DNA from: Candidatus Anaerobiospirillum pullicola
GTDB lineage: Bacteria > Pseudomonadota > Gammaproteobacteria > Enterobacterales > Succinivibrionaceae
Length of the DNA: 64,000 nucleotides
Direction: 5' to 3'
NCBI GenBank assembly: GCA_018884035.1
Contig: JAHLFE010000044.1
Location: forward strand, 37,783 to 101,782
Program-made: the position numbers and the translations under genes
The notes under the pieces: model-generated
Told to the model about the DNA's origin: nothing
The model's input: the letters and a program-made list of their open reading frames with translations, nothing else
The model's database searches: none
In this document: piece after piece, positions 27,987 to 36,602 of the stretch
Layout: every line of letters begins with the position of its first letter
How positions within the stretch are numbered: the stretch's first letter is position 1

Positions 27987-28958
27987 TTACTGCTGCTGCC
28001 CTGCTGGAATGTTATCGTAGTTTTGCAGCTCTAAAGCCAGAGCATTGAGCTCGTCGGCGCCAATGATGCGGCGCTGCTGATCCTCCATATGACCACCCAA
28101 CTGCTTAATAAAGATCTCGGTGGCCATTCGCAGGGCATTGAAGTAGGCAAAGGCCTTACCCCGCTCAGGCAGCGTCATGTACAGAGCAATAGCTGAGGTC
28201 TGGTAGCCATGCATGTTCTCAGGGAAGTAGAACGGTGGCTCCATGGAGCAGATGCGGAAGACCTCGTTGGTCTTTTCACGGGCGTTTTCGTAGACGAAGT
28301 AGATCTTGAGGTTGTCCTTGATAAAGCCCTGAATAAAGCCGTAGTGGTTGCACAGCTCCTCAATATCCTCACCTAAGTAAGGCTTGTCCTTATCAGCCGC
28401 AATGATGATCTCATAGACCTCACGGTGTGGCATGTTATCAGCGTTGCTTGCTGCAGAGTTGGTCTCATTGCTATAGGCATCGGCACTAAGCGTCGTCGTG
28501 TCAGACGGCGTTGCCACTGTAGTTGGTGCGCCCTGACCGGCCATAGCAGCAGGAGTGGCAGCGGTAGTGGCGTGCGCTGGAGCATTACCCGCTTCATGAC
28601 GCAAGCCATGAGTCTGGGGGTTAACGCTAATCGAAGCGTTACTGCTTAAGTCAGCAAAGCCATCATCAAAGTCATGAGGCAGAGTGGCGCGCGCATGGCG
28701 GGCACTTTTGGCCGCTGGAGCCGCTTCGCTCTCGGCTTGTTCTTCGGCGTGAGCGTGTGGGGTTAAGGAATCTGGGGTAACGATGCGCACCTTACCAATT
28801 TGATTTGAGCGAGAGAGCTCTTGGTCGCGCTGGTCGTTTTTCTTGAGACGGCGGTTTTGCGGCTTATTGGAAAACCAGAGTCCATGGACGATAAAGACGA
28901 GGATGCAGATTGCACCAACGATCAGCACAATGGAACTGGGATCGGAAAAAGAGGACAT
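27987..28958 (-). CDS. zipA: Cell division protein ZipA
   Basis: N-terminal TM, charged/low-complexity linker, C-terminal ZipA domain ('PFYFPENMHGYQTSAIALYMTLPERGKAFAYFNALRMATEIFIKQLGGHMEDQQRR'). zipA-ligA and cysZ synteny. Confidence 0.88.
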   Translation of the reverse strand: MSSFSDPSSIVLIVGAICILVFIVHGLWFSNKPQNRRLKKNDQRDQELSRSNQIGKVRIVTPDSLTPHAHAEEQAESEAAPAAKSARHARATLPHDFDDGFADLSSNASISVNPQTHGLRHEAGNAPAHATTAATPAAMAGQGAPTTVATPSDTTTLSADAYSNETNSAASNADNMPHREVYEIIIAADKDKPYLGEDIEELCNHYGFIQGFIKDNLKIYFVYENAREKTNEVFRICSMEPPFYFPENMHGYQTSAIALYMTLPERGKAFAYFNALRMATEIFIKQLGGHMEDQQRRIIGADELNALALELQNYDNIPAGQQQ

Positions 28959-29517
28959 GGCAGGTGATCTCAAAGGCCGCTGGTGCGGTCAGTTCTCTTT
29001 GCGTGTCTCTTTGCATGTCTCTTTTCCTGCACACAGAGCACACAGGCAGGGCTGGGGACCTCAGGGGACGGAGTGTCAGACGAGGAATCGCAGTAGCTTG
29101 TGAGGTGTGCAAAAGAGAAACAAAACAAGGACGAAACAGAAGCTTTGTGGGGTGGAACCGCAGCCGTGCTTAGAGCTAAAACTGTAAGCTTGCTGGTGGC
29201 GTCGACACCAAGGGCAGCTAAGACTTGTTGCGGGTCTTAGTTGATGGCGAAAATTATACTCAAAGCCCCCATAAAGTCGCAATTGAGCACGGTAGACATA
29301 AGCTTAGAGGAAGTGGTGACGGTCAAGAGACAATGCTGCTCAAGGGGGGATTTTGGTTTTTGTCTGCTGGGGTTTGCGGTATGATGAGAGCTAGTTTTTG
29401 CTCTTTACGCCGCGCGTCATAGCGCCCACCGTAAGGGGCTCCCAGCGCCGCGCCGTGCGGCGCAGCGCAGCGAAAGGCGCGCCTTTCTTGTTTTATCCAT
29501 CGCTCTTGGCCTTAAGC

Positions 29518-30300
29518 ATGATCAAAGACAGTTCTAACCAAGAAATCTCAATCTGGAATATGGTTGGCTACCTCGGATCCGGCCTGCAATTAGCCCTCTC
29601 CAAAGAGTGCCGCTTATATGTGGTCATACCAATCATTATCAACTTTTTGGTGCTGGCCATTGGTGGCTATCTGGTTGTTCAGACCATTTCGGGCTTTTTA
29701 CAGCAGTACCTTGATCTGCTGCCAGAGTGGCTTAACTTCTTAAGCTACGTGCTGTGGATCTTTTTAGCCCTGACCATGGGCTTTGTCTTTTGCTACATCT
29801 TCTCCACGGTTGCGACCATTATTGCCTCACCTTTTTACGGCATGCTGGCCGAGAAAGCCGAGGGCGTGATTCGTGGGGCGCCATTTGCTGCGGGCAGTGA
29901 TGACGGCTTTGCCGCTGTCATCAAGGACGTACCACGTGTGATTAAGCGTGAGCTACGCAAGATGGCTTACTACCTGCCACGCGTGATTGTCTGCCTGATC
30001 ATTTCCTTTATTCCTGTCATTAATGTCATTTCCCCTATCTTATGGTTCTTACTGGCGGCGTGGATGATGTGCATTCAGTACGTCGACTACCCATACGACA
30101 ACCACAAGATCTCATTTGATGACATGAAGAAGGACTTGCAGAACCAGCGCTTAGCTTCGTTTGTGATGGGGGCGGTGATTTCGCTGGCGATGACGGTGCC
30201 TATTTTGAACTTGGTGATTCCACCAGCAGCGGTGTGCGCTGGCACTAAGTACTATGTCGAGATGCAAAAGCGCTATACCATTGATGTGGCGCTGCGCTAA
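29518..30300 (+). CDS. cysZ: CysZ/EI24-family sulfate transporter
   Basis: 'MVGYLGSGLQLALSKECRLYVVIPIIINFLVLAIGGYLV...IASPFYGMLAEKAEG'. Divergent from zipA. Confidence 0.9.
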   Translation: MIKDSSNQEISIWNMVGYLGSGLQLALSKECRLYVVIPIIINFLVLAIGGYLVVQTISGFLQQYLDLLPEWLNFLSYVLWIFLALTMGFVFCYIFSTVATIIASPFYGMLAEKAEGVIRGAPFAAGSDDGFAAVIKDVPRVIKRELRKMAYYLPRVIVCLIISFIPVINVISPILWFLLAAWMMCIQYVDYPYDNHKISFDDMKKDLQNQRLASFVMGAVISLAMTVPILNLVIPPAAVCAGTKYYVEMQKRYTIDVALR

Positions 30301-30343
30301 GAAACGCTAAAAGCTACGGCAGTTATAGCCACAACCACAGAGC

Positions 30344-30505
30344 TAAGAAATGAGTGATCGAATAAATGACGGAGAAAGGGATGAGTGATGGAAACGTCAC
30401 CAACCGTAAGATGAATGGTGCAGGTGAGCCTAATCCTATCTTAAGAGGGGGCACCATGCTTATCCTAAAGTCCGTCATCTGTTAGGTCAGTCGTTCCTAA
30501 GACAA
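30344..30505 (+). repeat. Dispersed repeat family 3, copy A (between cysZ and the EI homologue)
   Basis: Matches the reverse complement of 52675..52818 (shared 'atgagtgatc.aataa.tgacgg', 'aagatgaa.ggtgcagg.gag.ct.a.cctatcttaag'). Confidence 0.85.
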
Positions 30506-30728
30506 CAGTGCTAATACTGCTGGCCGCTTTCCTTACGGGAATTTCTCCCTACAGGAATCGCTCAAGCTGCCAGCAAGGCTCAAAGCAGGCGTTACACTTC
30601 GCCGCTGTCGGCGGCGTGATCTTTGCGCTGTGGGCGTGGTGACAACAGGTGCTGCTAAGCGTGTAGGGCGAGGCTTTGCGAGGATAGGCTTGACTAGCCA
30701 AGTCTAGGATAGGGCCGAGGAGGATGTA

Positions 30729-32429
30729 ATGTACACCATGTCAGGAATCACTGTCTCTGAAGGCGTCAGTGAGGGCTTTGCCTTTTTACTGCTGCCGCAG
30801 ACGGTGTCCACTGAGATCGAAGCTACGCGGGCTCTTAGTCCTAGCGATGAGCGCTTAAAGTACCTAAAAGCCAGTCGCGAGTTTGCCAACAAGCTCAATA
30901 ACGCCATGTCAGGTACTGTCCCTGATAAGGTGCGTGACCTCTTTGGCGCGGTGGCCTCGTATATCACCAACTCTGGCAACATTAACTCAATTGATGAGCT
31001 CATTGCTCAAGGGCAAAGTGCAGTTGAGGCAGCGCAAAACGTGCTCTTGCCAAAGATTGCGCGCTTTTCTCACGACGCTGATGCTGAGGATGGTGATGAT
31101 GACGACCCAGAAATGCAGGTCGTAGCCTCTGAGCTCAGCTCCCTGATGCGTGACTTTATTGCCACTATTAACTCCACCGGTACCGATGACGAGGCGGAGG
31201 TACCACAGCTCAATCGCCCGTGTGTCATCATTGCCTCTGACCTCACCCCAGCCCGCTTTCTATCTTTGCACACCGAGCTCGTGCGCGCGGTGGTGTTAGA
31301 GGGAGGTCAAGCCTCGGGGCACTTAGGCACGGTCTTACGTGACCTGTGTATCCCTGCCATTTATGGGGTAAAGGGCGCGCTGACTATTAAAAATGGTGAG
31401 CATGTGCTGGTGGATGCCACACGGGGCACTATCCTCATCGAGCCACCACAAGACACAGCGCGGGCGCTGATTGCTCAGCAGGATCTCTTTAATAGCAATA
31501 GCGATGATGACGACCCACCTGATAGCGACTTACAGGTGACGGTGGCTGGGTCGATGGGCGCTATTGGTGAAATTGACCGCTTAGCGCGCTACTTAAACCA
31601 CGGCTTGGGACTGCTGCGCTCAGAGTTTCTTTTTTTAAACTACCATCATGAGCCCAGCGTCGAGGAAATGGTGCGCACCTTTACCTCGATCTTCTCTAAG
31701 ATTCCCAAGACCGCGCCGCTCACTGCGCGTACTTTTGACTTTGCAGGCGATAAGAAGCCACTCTTTACCGTGGAGTTAGACCACGAGGGCCCTCTTTACA
31801 GCTACGGCGCACAGGTAGGATCGGCACTGCTCAAAAAGGAATTACGGGCGCTGTTGCTCGCGTCGGCCGGACGGGAGATTCACATCGTATTTCCGCTCAT
31901 TACCCGCATTAGTGAGGCGAAGGCGCTGACCACGATGCTGGCACGGGTGATTGAGGAGCTGGAAAGTGATAATGTGCCTTACGGCAAGTCGCATGTCGCG
32001 GTGATGATTGAGACGCCTGCGGCGGTGCTCTCGGCTAAGGCCTTTGCCGCATATGGCGAGATGTTTTTGATCGGTACCAGCTCGCTTGCTGAGTACGCAT
32101 CGGCACCCCGTCCACCTGAGGATTACTTTACGCCTGCGCTCTCGAAGATGATTGCCATTGCCTGTAAGGGGGCGCATGATAGCCATGTGCAGGTGGGTAT
32201 CGCTGGTCGCTTTGCGATGCGCACAGAGTTGCTGCCGTTCTTCTTAGCGCTGGGAGCCAGTTATATCACCACGGATGCGACGTCGATTGCGAAGGTGCGT
32301 AAGGAGCTGCAGCAACTTGCAGATCAGGGCGTAGTACCGCACTTTGATCAAAAGCTGTACAACAGCTTAATGGAGGTGGCCTCCAGTGACGATCTCCAGC
32401 GCTTACTCTTTGCAGACGATTTTGCGTAG
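30729..32429 (+). CDS. ptsI: Degenerate phosphoenolpyruvate-protein phosphotransferase (Enzyme I homologue)
   Basis: Full-length EI-like: 'LLRSEFLFLNY', 'ARTFDFAGDKKP', 'VAVMIETPAAVL'. His-loop (GGQASGHLGTVLRDL) and 'GTSSLAEYASAPRPP'/'GIAGRFAM' depart from the EI consensus. Upstream of crr. Confidence 0.85.
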   Translation: MYTMSGITVSEGVSEGFAFLLLPQTVSTEIEATRALSPSDERLKYLKASREFANKLNNAMSGTVPDKVRDLFGAVASYITNSGNINSIDELIAQGQSAVEAAQNVLLPKIARFSHDADAEDGDDDDPEMQVVASELSSLMRDFIATINSTGTDDEAEVPQLNRPCVIIASDLTPARFLSLHTELVRAVVLEGGQASGHLGTVLRDLCIPAIYGVKGALTIKNGEHVLVDATRGTILIEPPQDTARALIAQQDLFNSNSDDDDPPDSDLQVTVAGSMGAIGEIDRLARYLNHGLGLLRSEFLFLNYHHEPSVEEMVRTFTSIFSKIPKTAPLTARTFDFAGDKKPLFTVELDHEGPLYSYGAQVGSALLKKELRALLLASAGREIHIVFPLITRISEAKALTTMLARVIEELESDNVPYGKSHVAVMIETPAAVLSAKAFAAYGEMFLIGTSSLAEYASAPRPPEDYFTPALSKMIAIACKGAHDSHVQVGIAGRFAMRTELLPFFLALGASYITTDATSIAKVRKELQQLADQGVVPHFDQKLYNSLMEVASSDDLQRLLFADDFA

Positions 32430-32524: not shown

Positions 32525-33082
32525 ATGGGCTTCTTTTCTGGTTTATTCAAGCACGTGACAAAGACCGATGAGGCGGCACCTTCAGCGGCTGAGGTCAAGA
32601 ACATTAACGCTGACGTGACTTTATATGCACCGGTTACTGGAACGCTCTTACCTCTGGAGGAGGTGCCAGATATCGTGATCTCAGAGAAGGTCATGGGTGA
32701 TGGCGTGGCGGTAGTGCCAGAGAGCGAGTCGATTGTGGCGCCGTGTGATGGCGTGATCTCGCGTTTGCTGCCGACAAAGAATGCCTTTGCGGTGCGCATG
32801 GCTGAGGGATTGGAGGTTTATGTCACCTTTGGTGTAGAGGCTATGGAGCTTAAGGGCGAGGGCTTTACCACCAAGGTGAATTTGGGCGATGAGGTGAAAA
32901 AGGGCGACCCGATCATTATTACGGAGCCGCGCTTATTGAGCTCTAAGCTCAAGTCGACCATTACCTCGATGATTGTGATTAAGAGCACGGGCGATATTGA
33001 TAAGATCTTTGCGGCGACGGGCAAGTGTCATGCTGGGGTGACGCCAGTGTTGTGGATTACGCTGCACAATAAAGCGCAATAG
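32525..33082 (+). CDS. crr: EIIA-Glc (Crr) homologue lacking both active-site histidines
   Basis: 'GFFSGLFKHVTK...LYAPVTGTLLPLEEVPDIVISEKVMGDGVAV...PTKNAFAVRMAEGLEVYVTFGVEAMELKGEGF'. Strong Crr similarity, with N (aat 32780-82) and T (acc 32825-27) at the His75/His90 positions. Confidence 0.9.
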   Translation: MGFFSGLFKHVTKTDEAAPSAAEVKNINADVTLYAPVTGTLLPLEEVPDIVISEKVMGDGVAVVPESESIVAPCDGVISRLLPTKNAFAVRMAEGLEVYVTFGVEAMELKGEGFTTKVNLGDEVKKGDPIIITEPRLLSSKLKSTITSMIVIKSTGDIDKIFAATGKCHAGVTPVLWITLHNKAQ

Positions 33083-33525: not shown

Positions 33526-35037
33526 TTAGATGCCGGATACAATCTCTTCAACCGACTTCTTCGCATCGCCGAAGCACATGTAGGTGTTGTCCTTGAAGAA
33601 CAGTGGGTTCTGCACACCCGCATAGCCCGCGTTCATCGAACGCTTGAAGACTACCACATTGCGAGCCTTCCACACCTCAAGCACTGGCATACCAGCAATT
33701 GGGCTGTTTGGATTCTCTAACGCAGCTGGATTCACGGTGTCGTTAGCACCAATAACCAGTACAGTGTCGGTGTTCTCGAAGTCGTCATTGATCTCATCCA
33801 TCTCAAAGACGATATCGTATGGCACCTTGGCCTCAGCTAACAGCACATTCATGTGACCTGGCAGACGGCCAGCCACTGGGTGAATGGCAAAACGCACTTG
33901 GCAGCCACGAGCTTGTAACTTCTCAGTTAACTGCGCCACTGCATTCTGCGCTTGCGATACAGCCATACCATAGCCTGGGGCGATGATGACCGAGGAAGAG
34001 TTCTTTAAGAGCTCTGCCACATCAGCGGTCTTCATCTCGTGGTACTCGCCCATTTCCTCGTCAGCATCAGTAGCAGCACCTTCGTTACCGAAGCCACCCA
34101 TGATCACCGACATGAAGGAGCGGTTCATAGCCTTACACATGATGTAAGACAGAATAGCACCGGAGGAGCCTACTAACGCACCAGTAACGATCAGAAGATC
34201 GTTCGAGAGCATAAAGCCAGATGCCGCTGCTGCCCAACCAGAGTAGGAGTTCAGCATCGAGATCACCACTGGCATGTCAGCACCACCAATGGCTGCCACT
34301 AAGTGCACACCAAAGGCAAAGGCGATCAGAGTCATCACCACTAATGGGAAGAGTGGTGGGTTAGCTGCTGCCATGAACCAGATCAGTAAGAAGAACGACA
34401 CGATCAGGGCGGCTAAGTTTAAGAGGTGACCGCCAGGGATCATTAAAGGCGCAGACTTGAAGACGCGCAGCTTGTAAGTGCCGTTTAACTTACCATAGGC
34501 CACGATAGAGCCAGTGAAGGTCACTGCACCAATGAAGATGCCTAAGAAGATCTCAACTAAGTGGGTGTTGAGCTCGGCAGCACTCATGGAAGTGCCCACA
34601 GCTGCAAGCGCAGCAGCGTTGGCCTTATTGGCTTCATCCAGCATCGCAACAATGGTGGCTGGCGAGTCACCAATTGATACCGTGATGGTATCTTGCACCG
34701 TTGGGCCTAACTCTAAGAAGGAGTTGTAACCCACCAGCACCGCAGCTAAACCCACAAAGGAGTGTAAGCATGCGATCATCTCTGGCATCTGGGTCATCGC
34801 CACGCGACGGGCAACGAAGATACCAATGGCACCGCCAATAACCATGGCGACAATGATTAAGAGGAAGCCTGAACCAGACTCAACCTGCACGAAGGTAGCT
34901 ACCAGAGCGATAGCCATACCTACCATGCCAGATAAGCAGCCGTACTTAGCCGTTTCCTGCTTCGATAAGCCCGCTAGGGCCATAATAAAGAGCAGTGCGG
35001 CCAAGATATAGGCCATGTGTATAGGACCTGCTACCAT
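33526..35037 (-). CDS. pntB: NAD(P) transhydrogenase subunit beta
   Basis: '[22 protein letters not shown]...[39 protein letters not shown]'. Confidence 0.97.
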
Positions 35038-35063
35038 TTGCTATTTCTCCTGATCTCTGATCC

Positions 35064-36602
35064 TTACTGCTGTTTCTTGAACATGGCCAGCATACGGCGT
35101 GTCACCGCAAAGCCACCGAAGATGTTAATCGAGGCAATGAGGACACCGATGAAGGCGAAGGCACCAATCACAAATGAGCCGGAGCTGATCTGTAAAATAG
35201 CACCCACAACGATAATGCCCGAAATAGCATTGGTAACCGACATCAGTGGGGTGTGCAGAGAGTGAGTAACGTTCCATACCACGTAGTAACCGACCACGCA
35301 GGCTAAGACGAAGACGGTGAAGTGTGGTAAGAACTTTTCTGGAGCGTAAATGCCAATCAGCGCAAAAGCGATGAGAACAATGGCAAGTAAGGAGATCTTG
35401 AAGGTCTTGGAGACCTGATGCTGCTCGATCTTCTTTGGTGGCTCAGCGCTCTTTGGCGCAGCTGGAGCAGCAGAGACGCTGATCTTTGGTGGTGGGAAGG
35501 TCACTTCGCCATCACGGGTTACGCACATGTTGCGTAAGATCACGTCCTCAAAGTCGACGTCGATGTTGCCATCCTTGTTCTTGCACAGGAGCTTAGCTAA
35601 GTTGACTAAGTTCGTAGAGTACAGTTGCGAGGATTGGGCTGGCAGACGGCAAGCTAAGTCAGAGTAGCCAATGATCTTGACACCATTTGGCGTGGTAGTG
35701 ATCTTGCCCTCGACCGTCAGTTCGCAGTTACCACCGGTGGCAGCAGCTAAGTCCACGATCACAGAGCCTGGCTTCATGCTCTCGACCATTTCCTTAGAAA
35801 TCAGGCGTGGAGCTGGCTTGCCAGGAATAGCAGCGGTGGTGATGATGATGTCCACGTCCTTGGCTTGAGCTGCAAACAGCTCCATCTCAGCCTTGATGAA
35901 CTCATCAGACATGACCTTGGCGTAGCCGTCGGAGGAACCGCCGTCTTCAGTCTTAAAGTCTAACTTTAAGAACTCACCACCCATGGACTTGATTTGGTCG
36001 GCCACCTCAAGACGGGTATCGAAAGCACGCACGATAGCGCCTAACGAGTGGGCAGCACCAATAGCAGCAAGGCCAGCCACACCAGCACCGATCACCAGTA
36101 CCTTGGCAGGTGGAACCTTACCTGCAGCCGTCACTTGACCAGTGAAGAAACGACCAAAGGTGTGTGCAGCCTCGATCACGGCGCGGTAGCCGGAGATGTT
36201 GGCGGTAGAGGACAGGGCGTCTAAAGCCTGAGCACGAGAAATACGTGGCACCATGTCCATAGCAAGGACGGTGACCTTCTTCTCGTTTAACTTGGCGACT
36301 AAGTCAGGGTTTTGTGCTGGGCGCACAAAGCTGACTAAAGTTTGACCCTCGTGGAGGAGCTTGATTTCCTCATCGCTAGGGGCATTGACCTTAAAGATGA
36401 TGTCGCTTTGCCAAACCTCACGACCACGTAAAACCTTCGCACCGGCGGCGGTATAGGCGGCGTCGTCAAAGCTGGCATCAGCGCCGGCGTTGCTTTGCAC
36501 CGCCACTTCAAAGCCTAACTTGATGAGCTTGGTTACGGTGTCAGGAGTGGCAGCCACTCTTGTTTCGCCTTTCAAGCTTTCTTTTGGAATACCTATCAGC
36601 AT
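35064..36602 (-). CDS. pntA: NAD(P) transhydrogenase subunit alpha
   Basis: '[23 protein letters not shown]...[30 protein letters not shown]'. Confidence 0.97.

Follow-up and report, generated by a model that had tools for sequence, protein, structure and literature searches.

An EIIA-Glc and Enzyme I pair that has lost catalytic residues, conserved in eight genera of the Succinivibrionaceae

In enteric bacteria, the textbook switch for carbon status is EIIA-Glc, whose logic is taken to be that of phosphorylation. What such a protein might do once its phosphate-carrying residues are gone is the question raised by crr*, a gene in the window (the whole 64,000-nucleotide stretch of Candidatus Anaerobiospirillum pullicola DNA analyzed here). 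Its product, Crr*, is an EIIA-Glc homologue in which both active-site histidines, His75 and His90, are replaced. An earlier note on this DNA had claimed the double replacement and given the codon positions; translation and alignment confirm the asparagine and threonine, and the positions are correct (Table 1). The close alignment with E. coli Crr described there was overstated, as identity is about 38%. Crr* exceeds the cut-offs of the Pfam model PTS_EIIA_1 (PF00358; 7e-37, 126.4 bits versus 27.2) and of TIGR00830 (111.5 versus 97.5 bits), but falls below that of the equivalog model NF006962 (145.5 bits versus 212). In a phmmer search of the PDB, it matched E. coli and Vibrio EIIA-Glc at about 1e-32, with N aligned to H75 and T to H90. 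Clade members were used to build an AlphaFold2 model (mean pLDDT 81); its TM score to EIIA-Glc structures is 0.91 on the target, and by this model Crr* is predicted to keep the EIIA-Glc fold, while its sequence predicts that it is unable to carry phosphate at the His90 site.

The earlier note, sound as it was on the histidines of Crr*, overlooked an equally disabled Enzyme I homologue (EI*, encoded by ptsI*) directly upstream and the absence of ptsH from the operon. In Enzyme I (E. coli structure 2HWG), D455 is an Mg2+ ligand, N454 and R465 hold the phosphate of PEP, and C502 is the proton donor. Relative to E. coli PtsI, EI* carries N454S, D455S, C502A, E504R and R358G and has lost R465; because N454, D455, R465 and C502 are lost, autophosphorylation from PEP should be impossible. 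Serines at 454 and 455 are present in 39/39 non-redundant EI* sequences, Ala502 in 38 and Arg504 in 35. Retained in the alignment to E. coli PtsI are His189, R296, R332, K340 and E431; His189 occurs in all 38 EI* sequences that cover the region, and a one-residue shift around it is common to the canonical Enzymes I of the Succinivibrionaceae. The Pfam domains follow the Enzyme I order (PF05524, weak at 24.1 bits against a cut-off of 24.4, then PF00391 and PF02896), and an AlphaFold2 model matches the Enzyme I fold. The equivalog-domain model TIGR01417 is failed (177.5 versus 341.7 bits), and strong divergence marks the HPr-binding domain at the N-terminus, which scores 24 bits compared with about 115-127 in the best catalytic EI paralogues. 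EI* of the window and of its Anaerobiospirillum relatives also has acidic runs (DDDD); in some of these species the protein reaches about 660 aa, so its inserts vary within the genus.

Table 1. Coordinates of the crr* locus in the window and of a second EIIA-Glc-type paralogue in Succinivibrio
Feature	Position	Strand	Remarks
zipA-like	27987..28973	-	Name from sequence and synteny; conserved neighbor marking the ancestral ptsHI-crr locus
cysZ, sulfate transporter	29398..30300	+	NF003433, 281 bits, cut-off 140
Gap	30301..30728	+	cysK-ptsH site in relatives
ptsI*	30729..32429	+	Enzyme I homologue, 566 aa, PEP site disabled
crr*	32525..33082	+	EIIA-Glc homologue, 185 aa, Thr at His90 site, Asn at His75
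N-terminal amphipathic segment MGFFSGLFKHVT	32525..32560	+	Clade-wide form M[GS]FFSxLFK
Codon aat (Asn), His75 position	32780..32782	+	Window translation
Codon acc (Thr), phosphoacceptor His90 position	32825..32827	+	Window translation
pntB and pntA (transhydrogenase)	33526..36602	-	Names from sequence; conserved downstream neighbors
Asn75/Asn90 EIIA paralogue	L256:2570-3067	-	
Asn75/Asn90 EIIA paralogue	L258:2872-3372	+	
Asn75/Asn90 EIIA paralogue	L272:2556-3047	+	
Asn75/Asn90 EIIA paralogue	L273-L280		8 further Succinivibrio loci

The gene order zipA, cysZ, ptsI*, crr*, pntB/pntA is kept in most loci for which enough flanking sequence was fetched, and cysZ, the conserved upstream neighbor, directly adjoins ptsI* in most of the genera with the dead pair. 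No HPr ORF or remnant was found in the gap between cysZ and ptsI*. At the same locus in a related genus (g6), the genes are ptsH-ptsI-crr-pntB, and the catalytic residues of both EI and Crr are in place. The conserved order and the g6 locus show the Crr*/EI* pair to derive from the ancestral gammaproteobacterial ptsHI-crr locus and not to be a stray paralogue.

All 58 Succinivibrionaceae genomes in the family sample have a Crr orthologue. His90 is missing from that protein in 41/41 species of eight genera, and His75 is missing in all but one of them; the 17 species of the remaining six genera all have His90. Fixation across the clade, which the earlier note had proposed as a check, is thus found for the loss of His90, and as far as sequence can tell its statement that the protein cannot carry phosphate is borne out at that site. 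The residue at position 90 varies among 40 non-redundant rows (T in 21, S in 12, R in 3, and N, C, G and V in one each), so the exact residue appears to matter less than the loss of histidine. The dead EI signature tracks exactly the same eight genera: the adjacent Enzyme I is dead in 40 of the 41 Crr* species and deleted in the other, G044 (locus L075), in which ptsI* has been naturally removed from between cysZ and a retained crr*. Since G044 has Crr* without EI*, the two proteins need not act together. With His90 absent throughout 41 species in eight genera, independently sequenced isolates included, the substitutions in Crr* are neither chance nor sequencing error.

A scan of GTDB representatives places the dead type in Anaerobiospirillum (including A. 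succiniciproducens DSM 6400), Succinatimonas hippei YIT 12066, Succinivibrio dextrinosolvens DSM 3072 and ACV-10, and Candidatus Avisuccinivibrio, and the eight genera include the type strains of Anaerobiospirillum, Succinatimonas and Succinivibrio. Among the best 80 GTDB loci, 28 are of the dead type, all from lineages of the family and none from outside it, and the next matches have about 25% identity. Sampling 198 genomes across the order likewise turned up no EI of the dead type.

All Crr* sequences group in a single clade (100/100) inside the group that holds E. coli Crr and the canonical Crr of the family. EI* is likewise a single clade (100), and its sister group is the canonical Enzymes I that occupy the same locus elsewhere in the Succinivibrionaceae; at 2.7 changes per site its stem is very long, and its placement therefore rests partly on synteny. 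Catalysis seems to have been lost once, with constraint returning afterwards. For crr*, the window differs from its nearest relative by 3 nonsynonymous versus 25 synonymous changes (dN/dS 0.033), and for ptsI* by 4 versus 78 (0.015); other close pairs give 0.02-0.12 for the two genes (Fisher p<1e-13). The canonical crr and ptsI of sister genera fall in the same range (0.03-0.12), and within a genus the values for crr* and ptsI* are like or below those of the neighbors cysZ and zipA. Purifying selection on Crr*, the other check proposed in the earlier note, is thus found as in working copies, and the intact ORF reported there holds in all 41 species. The relaxed selection and broken ORFs that mark pseudogenes are not seen in the pair, and neutral decay was rejected on these grounds. 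A relic decaying slowly after a foreign PTS had replaced it would account for two genes without catalytic residues, for the vanished ptsH and for catalytic copies elsewhere, but given the undisrupted Crr* ORFs, the low dN/dS and several newly fixed residues (described below) it is improbable in the extreme.

Working phosphotransfer genes are indeed found elsewhere. In the genome of the window, contig C146 carries a Crr with both histidines adjoining an Enzyme I, C131 the end of an Enzyme I adjoining HPr, C130 a further Enzyme I, C67 a PtsP-like Enzyme I, C192 a second HPr, and C9 an EIIA-carrying permease. A second, canonical crr accompanied by decay of the present copy was the outcome named beforehand as contradicting the earlier note; the canonical gene exists (C146), but crr* is not decaying. 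HPr was found in 41/41 genomes of the dead-pair genera, canonical EIIA paralogues are present in these genomes, and the extra Enzymes I that were read in these genera retain N454, D455, R465 and C502. The working Enzymes I split into two groups, which branch alongside Bacillota sequences (the joint node has SH-aLRT 85, one subgroup 99); support for this grouping is moderate, with SH-aLRT of 85-93 at some nodes. There is precedent for Proteobacteria gaining PTS genes from Firmicutes or Fusobacteria (PMC2405797), and displacement by foreign Enzymes I likely triggered the origin of the dead pair. In two loci (L297:2178-5301 and L298:4102-8656), a kinase-like gene, by its sequence of the four-carbon acid sugar kinase type, comes after the Enzyme I of one working group and close to gltX, an arrangement conserved between Succinivibrio and Anaerobiospirillum.

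With HPr encoded elsewhere, the relay might in principle run by other means, HPr~P or another donor phosphorylating His189 of EI* backwards and Thr or Ser90 of Crr* accepting the phosphate. The invariance of His189 and the presence of T or S in 33 of the 40 Crr* rows are what such a relay would call for, but position 90 can also be Arg, Gly, Val, Asn or Cys, the HPr-binding domain of EI* scores just under the Pfam cut-off, and ptsH is missing from the operon, which leaves this route improbable. Equally doubtful is the reading of EI* as a different enzyme of the PEP-utilizing barrel family with Crr* as its subunit. The invariant R296, R332, K340, E431 and His189 do place part of the pocket under selection; against this, the Mg2+ ligand Asp455 and the acid Cys502 are lost, no new conserved catalytic set is obvious, and G044 keeps Crr* without any EI*.

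In E. coli Crr, the face that meets HPr and the target proteins includes His75, His90, F41, F71, D94, V96 and E97. A column comparison of 40 Crr* rows finds F41I and F88Y in all of them, F71 replaced by L, I or V, and D94 mostly by G or E, whereas V96 and E97 have become variable and have lost their constraint. Other residues are newly fixed in the clade, namely Tyr88 (40/40), Arg69, Cys63, Ser143 and Trp165 (38/40 each) and Ser144 (36/40), while V36-P37-D38 and E43 are conserved. In the form given, neither the "conserved surface motifs" of the earlier note nor classical inducer exclusion is supported, the HPr- and target-binding face having been rebuilt. As to its proposal of a Crr locked in the unphosphorylated state, the loss of the phosphoacceptor stands, but the partner face has been remodelled.

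Adenylate cyclase is a classical EIIA-Glc client. It is present in 41/41 good genomes of the clade and likewise in the genera with canonical Crr, so as a discriminating partner it is uninformative. The class I adenylate cyclase of Anaerobiospirillum (G001-G009) has unusually long frames of about 1300-2300 aa, and split Pfam matches in several of these species suggest large insertions.

The N-terminal amphipathic segment of Crr* is retained across the clade. In V. cholerae EIIA-Glc, the N-terminal segment is needed for regulating membrane partners and not cytosolic ones (PMC6123446), and by this analogy the segment in Crr* is likely a membrane anchor. A classical Crr frozen in its dephospho form, which would constitutively inhibit sugar permeases and glycerol kinase and would not stimulate adenylate cyclase, is compatible with the kept fold, with the conserved V36-P37-D38 and E43, with an anchor of the kind that V. 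cholerae membrane partners require (PMC6123446), and with the presence of adenylate cyclase. However, the core of the target face is uniformly altered, and adenylate cyclase is equally present beside canonical Crr. Because the binding face has been rebuilt, Crr* is not simply E. coli Crr arrested without phosphate, and this explanation is considered unlikely. The rebuilt face, the kept N-terminal segment and the V. cholerae precedent together favor a binding protein located at the membrane whose partner is new or altered, and on its sequence Crr* is probably a membrane-associated, phosphorylation-independent regulator.

What defines a pseudoenzyme, the loss of catalytic residues with fold and purifying selection kept, is found in both proteins from sequence, AlphaFold2 models and dN/dS. 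The single clades, the ancestral locus, dN/dS of 0.02-0.12 and the catalytic genes elsewhere identify Crr* and EI* as a fixed pseudoenzyme pair and not a decaying one, and the sequences suggest that both relay proteins have been turned into something else, probably regulators. The preferred explanation, held with somewhat better than even confidence, is that the vertically inherited ptsI-crr was converted once, in the ancestor of the eight genera, into a pseudoenzyme pair kept for protein-protein interaction. Bacillota-like Enzymes I would have taken over phosphotransfer, ptsH would have been lost from the operon, and the original EI and EIIA, freed from catalysis, would have been retained for their interactions. 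The N-terminal amphipathic segment would hold Crr* at the membrane, and Crr* would bind its target through the rebuilt old active face (Ile41, Tyr88, Thr/Ser90, Asn75 and Arg69), with the newly fixed Ser143-Ser144 and Trp165 joining in. Its activity would be set by its own amount or by EI* and not by phosphorylation, and R296, R332, K340 and E431 may still let EI* bind a ligand resembling PEP or pyruvate, without turnover. A more specific version, in which the EI and EIIA-Glc segment displaced by foreign Enzymes I was re-used as a phosphorylation-free regulatory complex in which EI* would sense a PEP-like metabolite and Crr* would use its new surface to act on a new target, is offered tentatively, as one possibility.

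Succinivibrio has a second EIIA-Glc-type paralogue of about 165 aa, with Asn at both the His75 and His90 positions in the 11/11 species read. It forms its own clade (100/100) and, at the three fully read loci, has a LysR-type regulator nearby. As this double loss is independent, chance becomes an even less likely source of the missing histidines, and EIIA proteins that cannot be phosphorylated would seem to be of use in the Succinivibrionaceae. In genera g12 and g13 (G049-G056; e.g. L300:5015-5623, minus strand), a canonical Crr (with H75N in G056) has no adjoining ptsI, the only Enzyme I found is PtsP-sized, and HPr matches occur only within ORFs of about 400 aa; in G053, crr adjoins threonine-biosynthesis-like genes. 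Judged by these genes, the g12/g13 protein is a Crr without an obvious sugar relay.

Crr* and EI* belong to the Crr and PtsI families by descent, but fail the features that define those families functionally. Crr* shares with E. coli EIIA-Glc (NF006962, TIGR00830, PF00358) its fold, locus, N-terminal amphipathic segment and VPD and E43 motifs, but lacks His90 and His75, has a rebuilt active face and scores below the NF006962 cut-off. EI* has the same locus and order of domains as E. coli Enzyme I (TIGR01417), together with His189 and some of the PEP pocket, but lacks N454, D455, R465, C502 and E504 and scores below the TIGR01417 cut-off. PTS-derived regulators without a transport role are represented by PTS-Ntr and the incomplete PTS of Brucella (PMC2937029), and unphosphorylated EIIA-Ntr acts as a regulator on its targets (PMC4314083). 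The regulators of this kind that were found keep a phosphorylatable histidine and a working EI, whereas the present pair is disabled in both. There is also a likeness to inactive-enzyme regulators such as the iRhoms (PMC8580931), in which catalytic residues are lost while fold and selection are kept. No earlier description of an inactive PTS EI-EIIA pair was found in the open-licence literature searched.

For annotation, the pair carries a warning, as domain searches still detect PTS EIIA and EI domains in two proteins neither of which should perform PTS chemistry. Phosphorylation-independent roles are directly testable in the culturable S. dextrinosolvens, A. succiniciproducens and S. hippei. 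A clade that has long retained EI and EIIA-Glc after the loss of phosphotransfer allows what these proteins bind to be considered apart from the chemistry that they perform.
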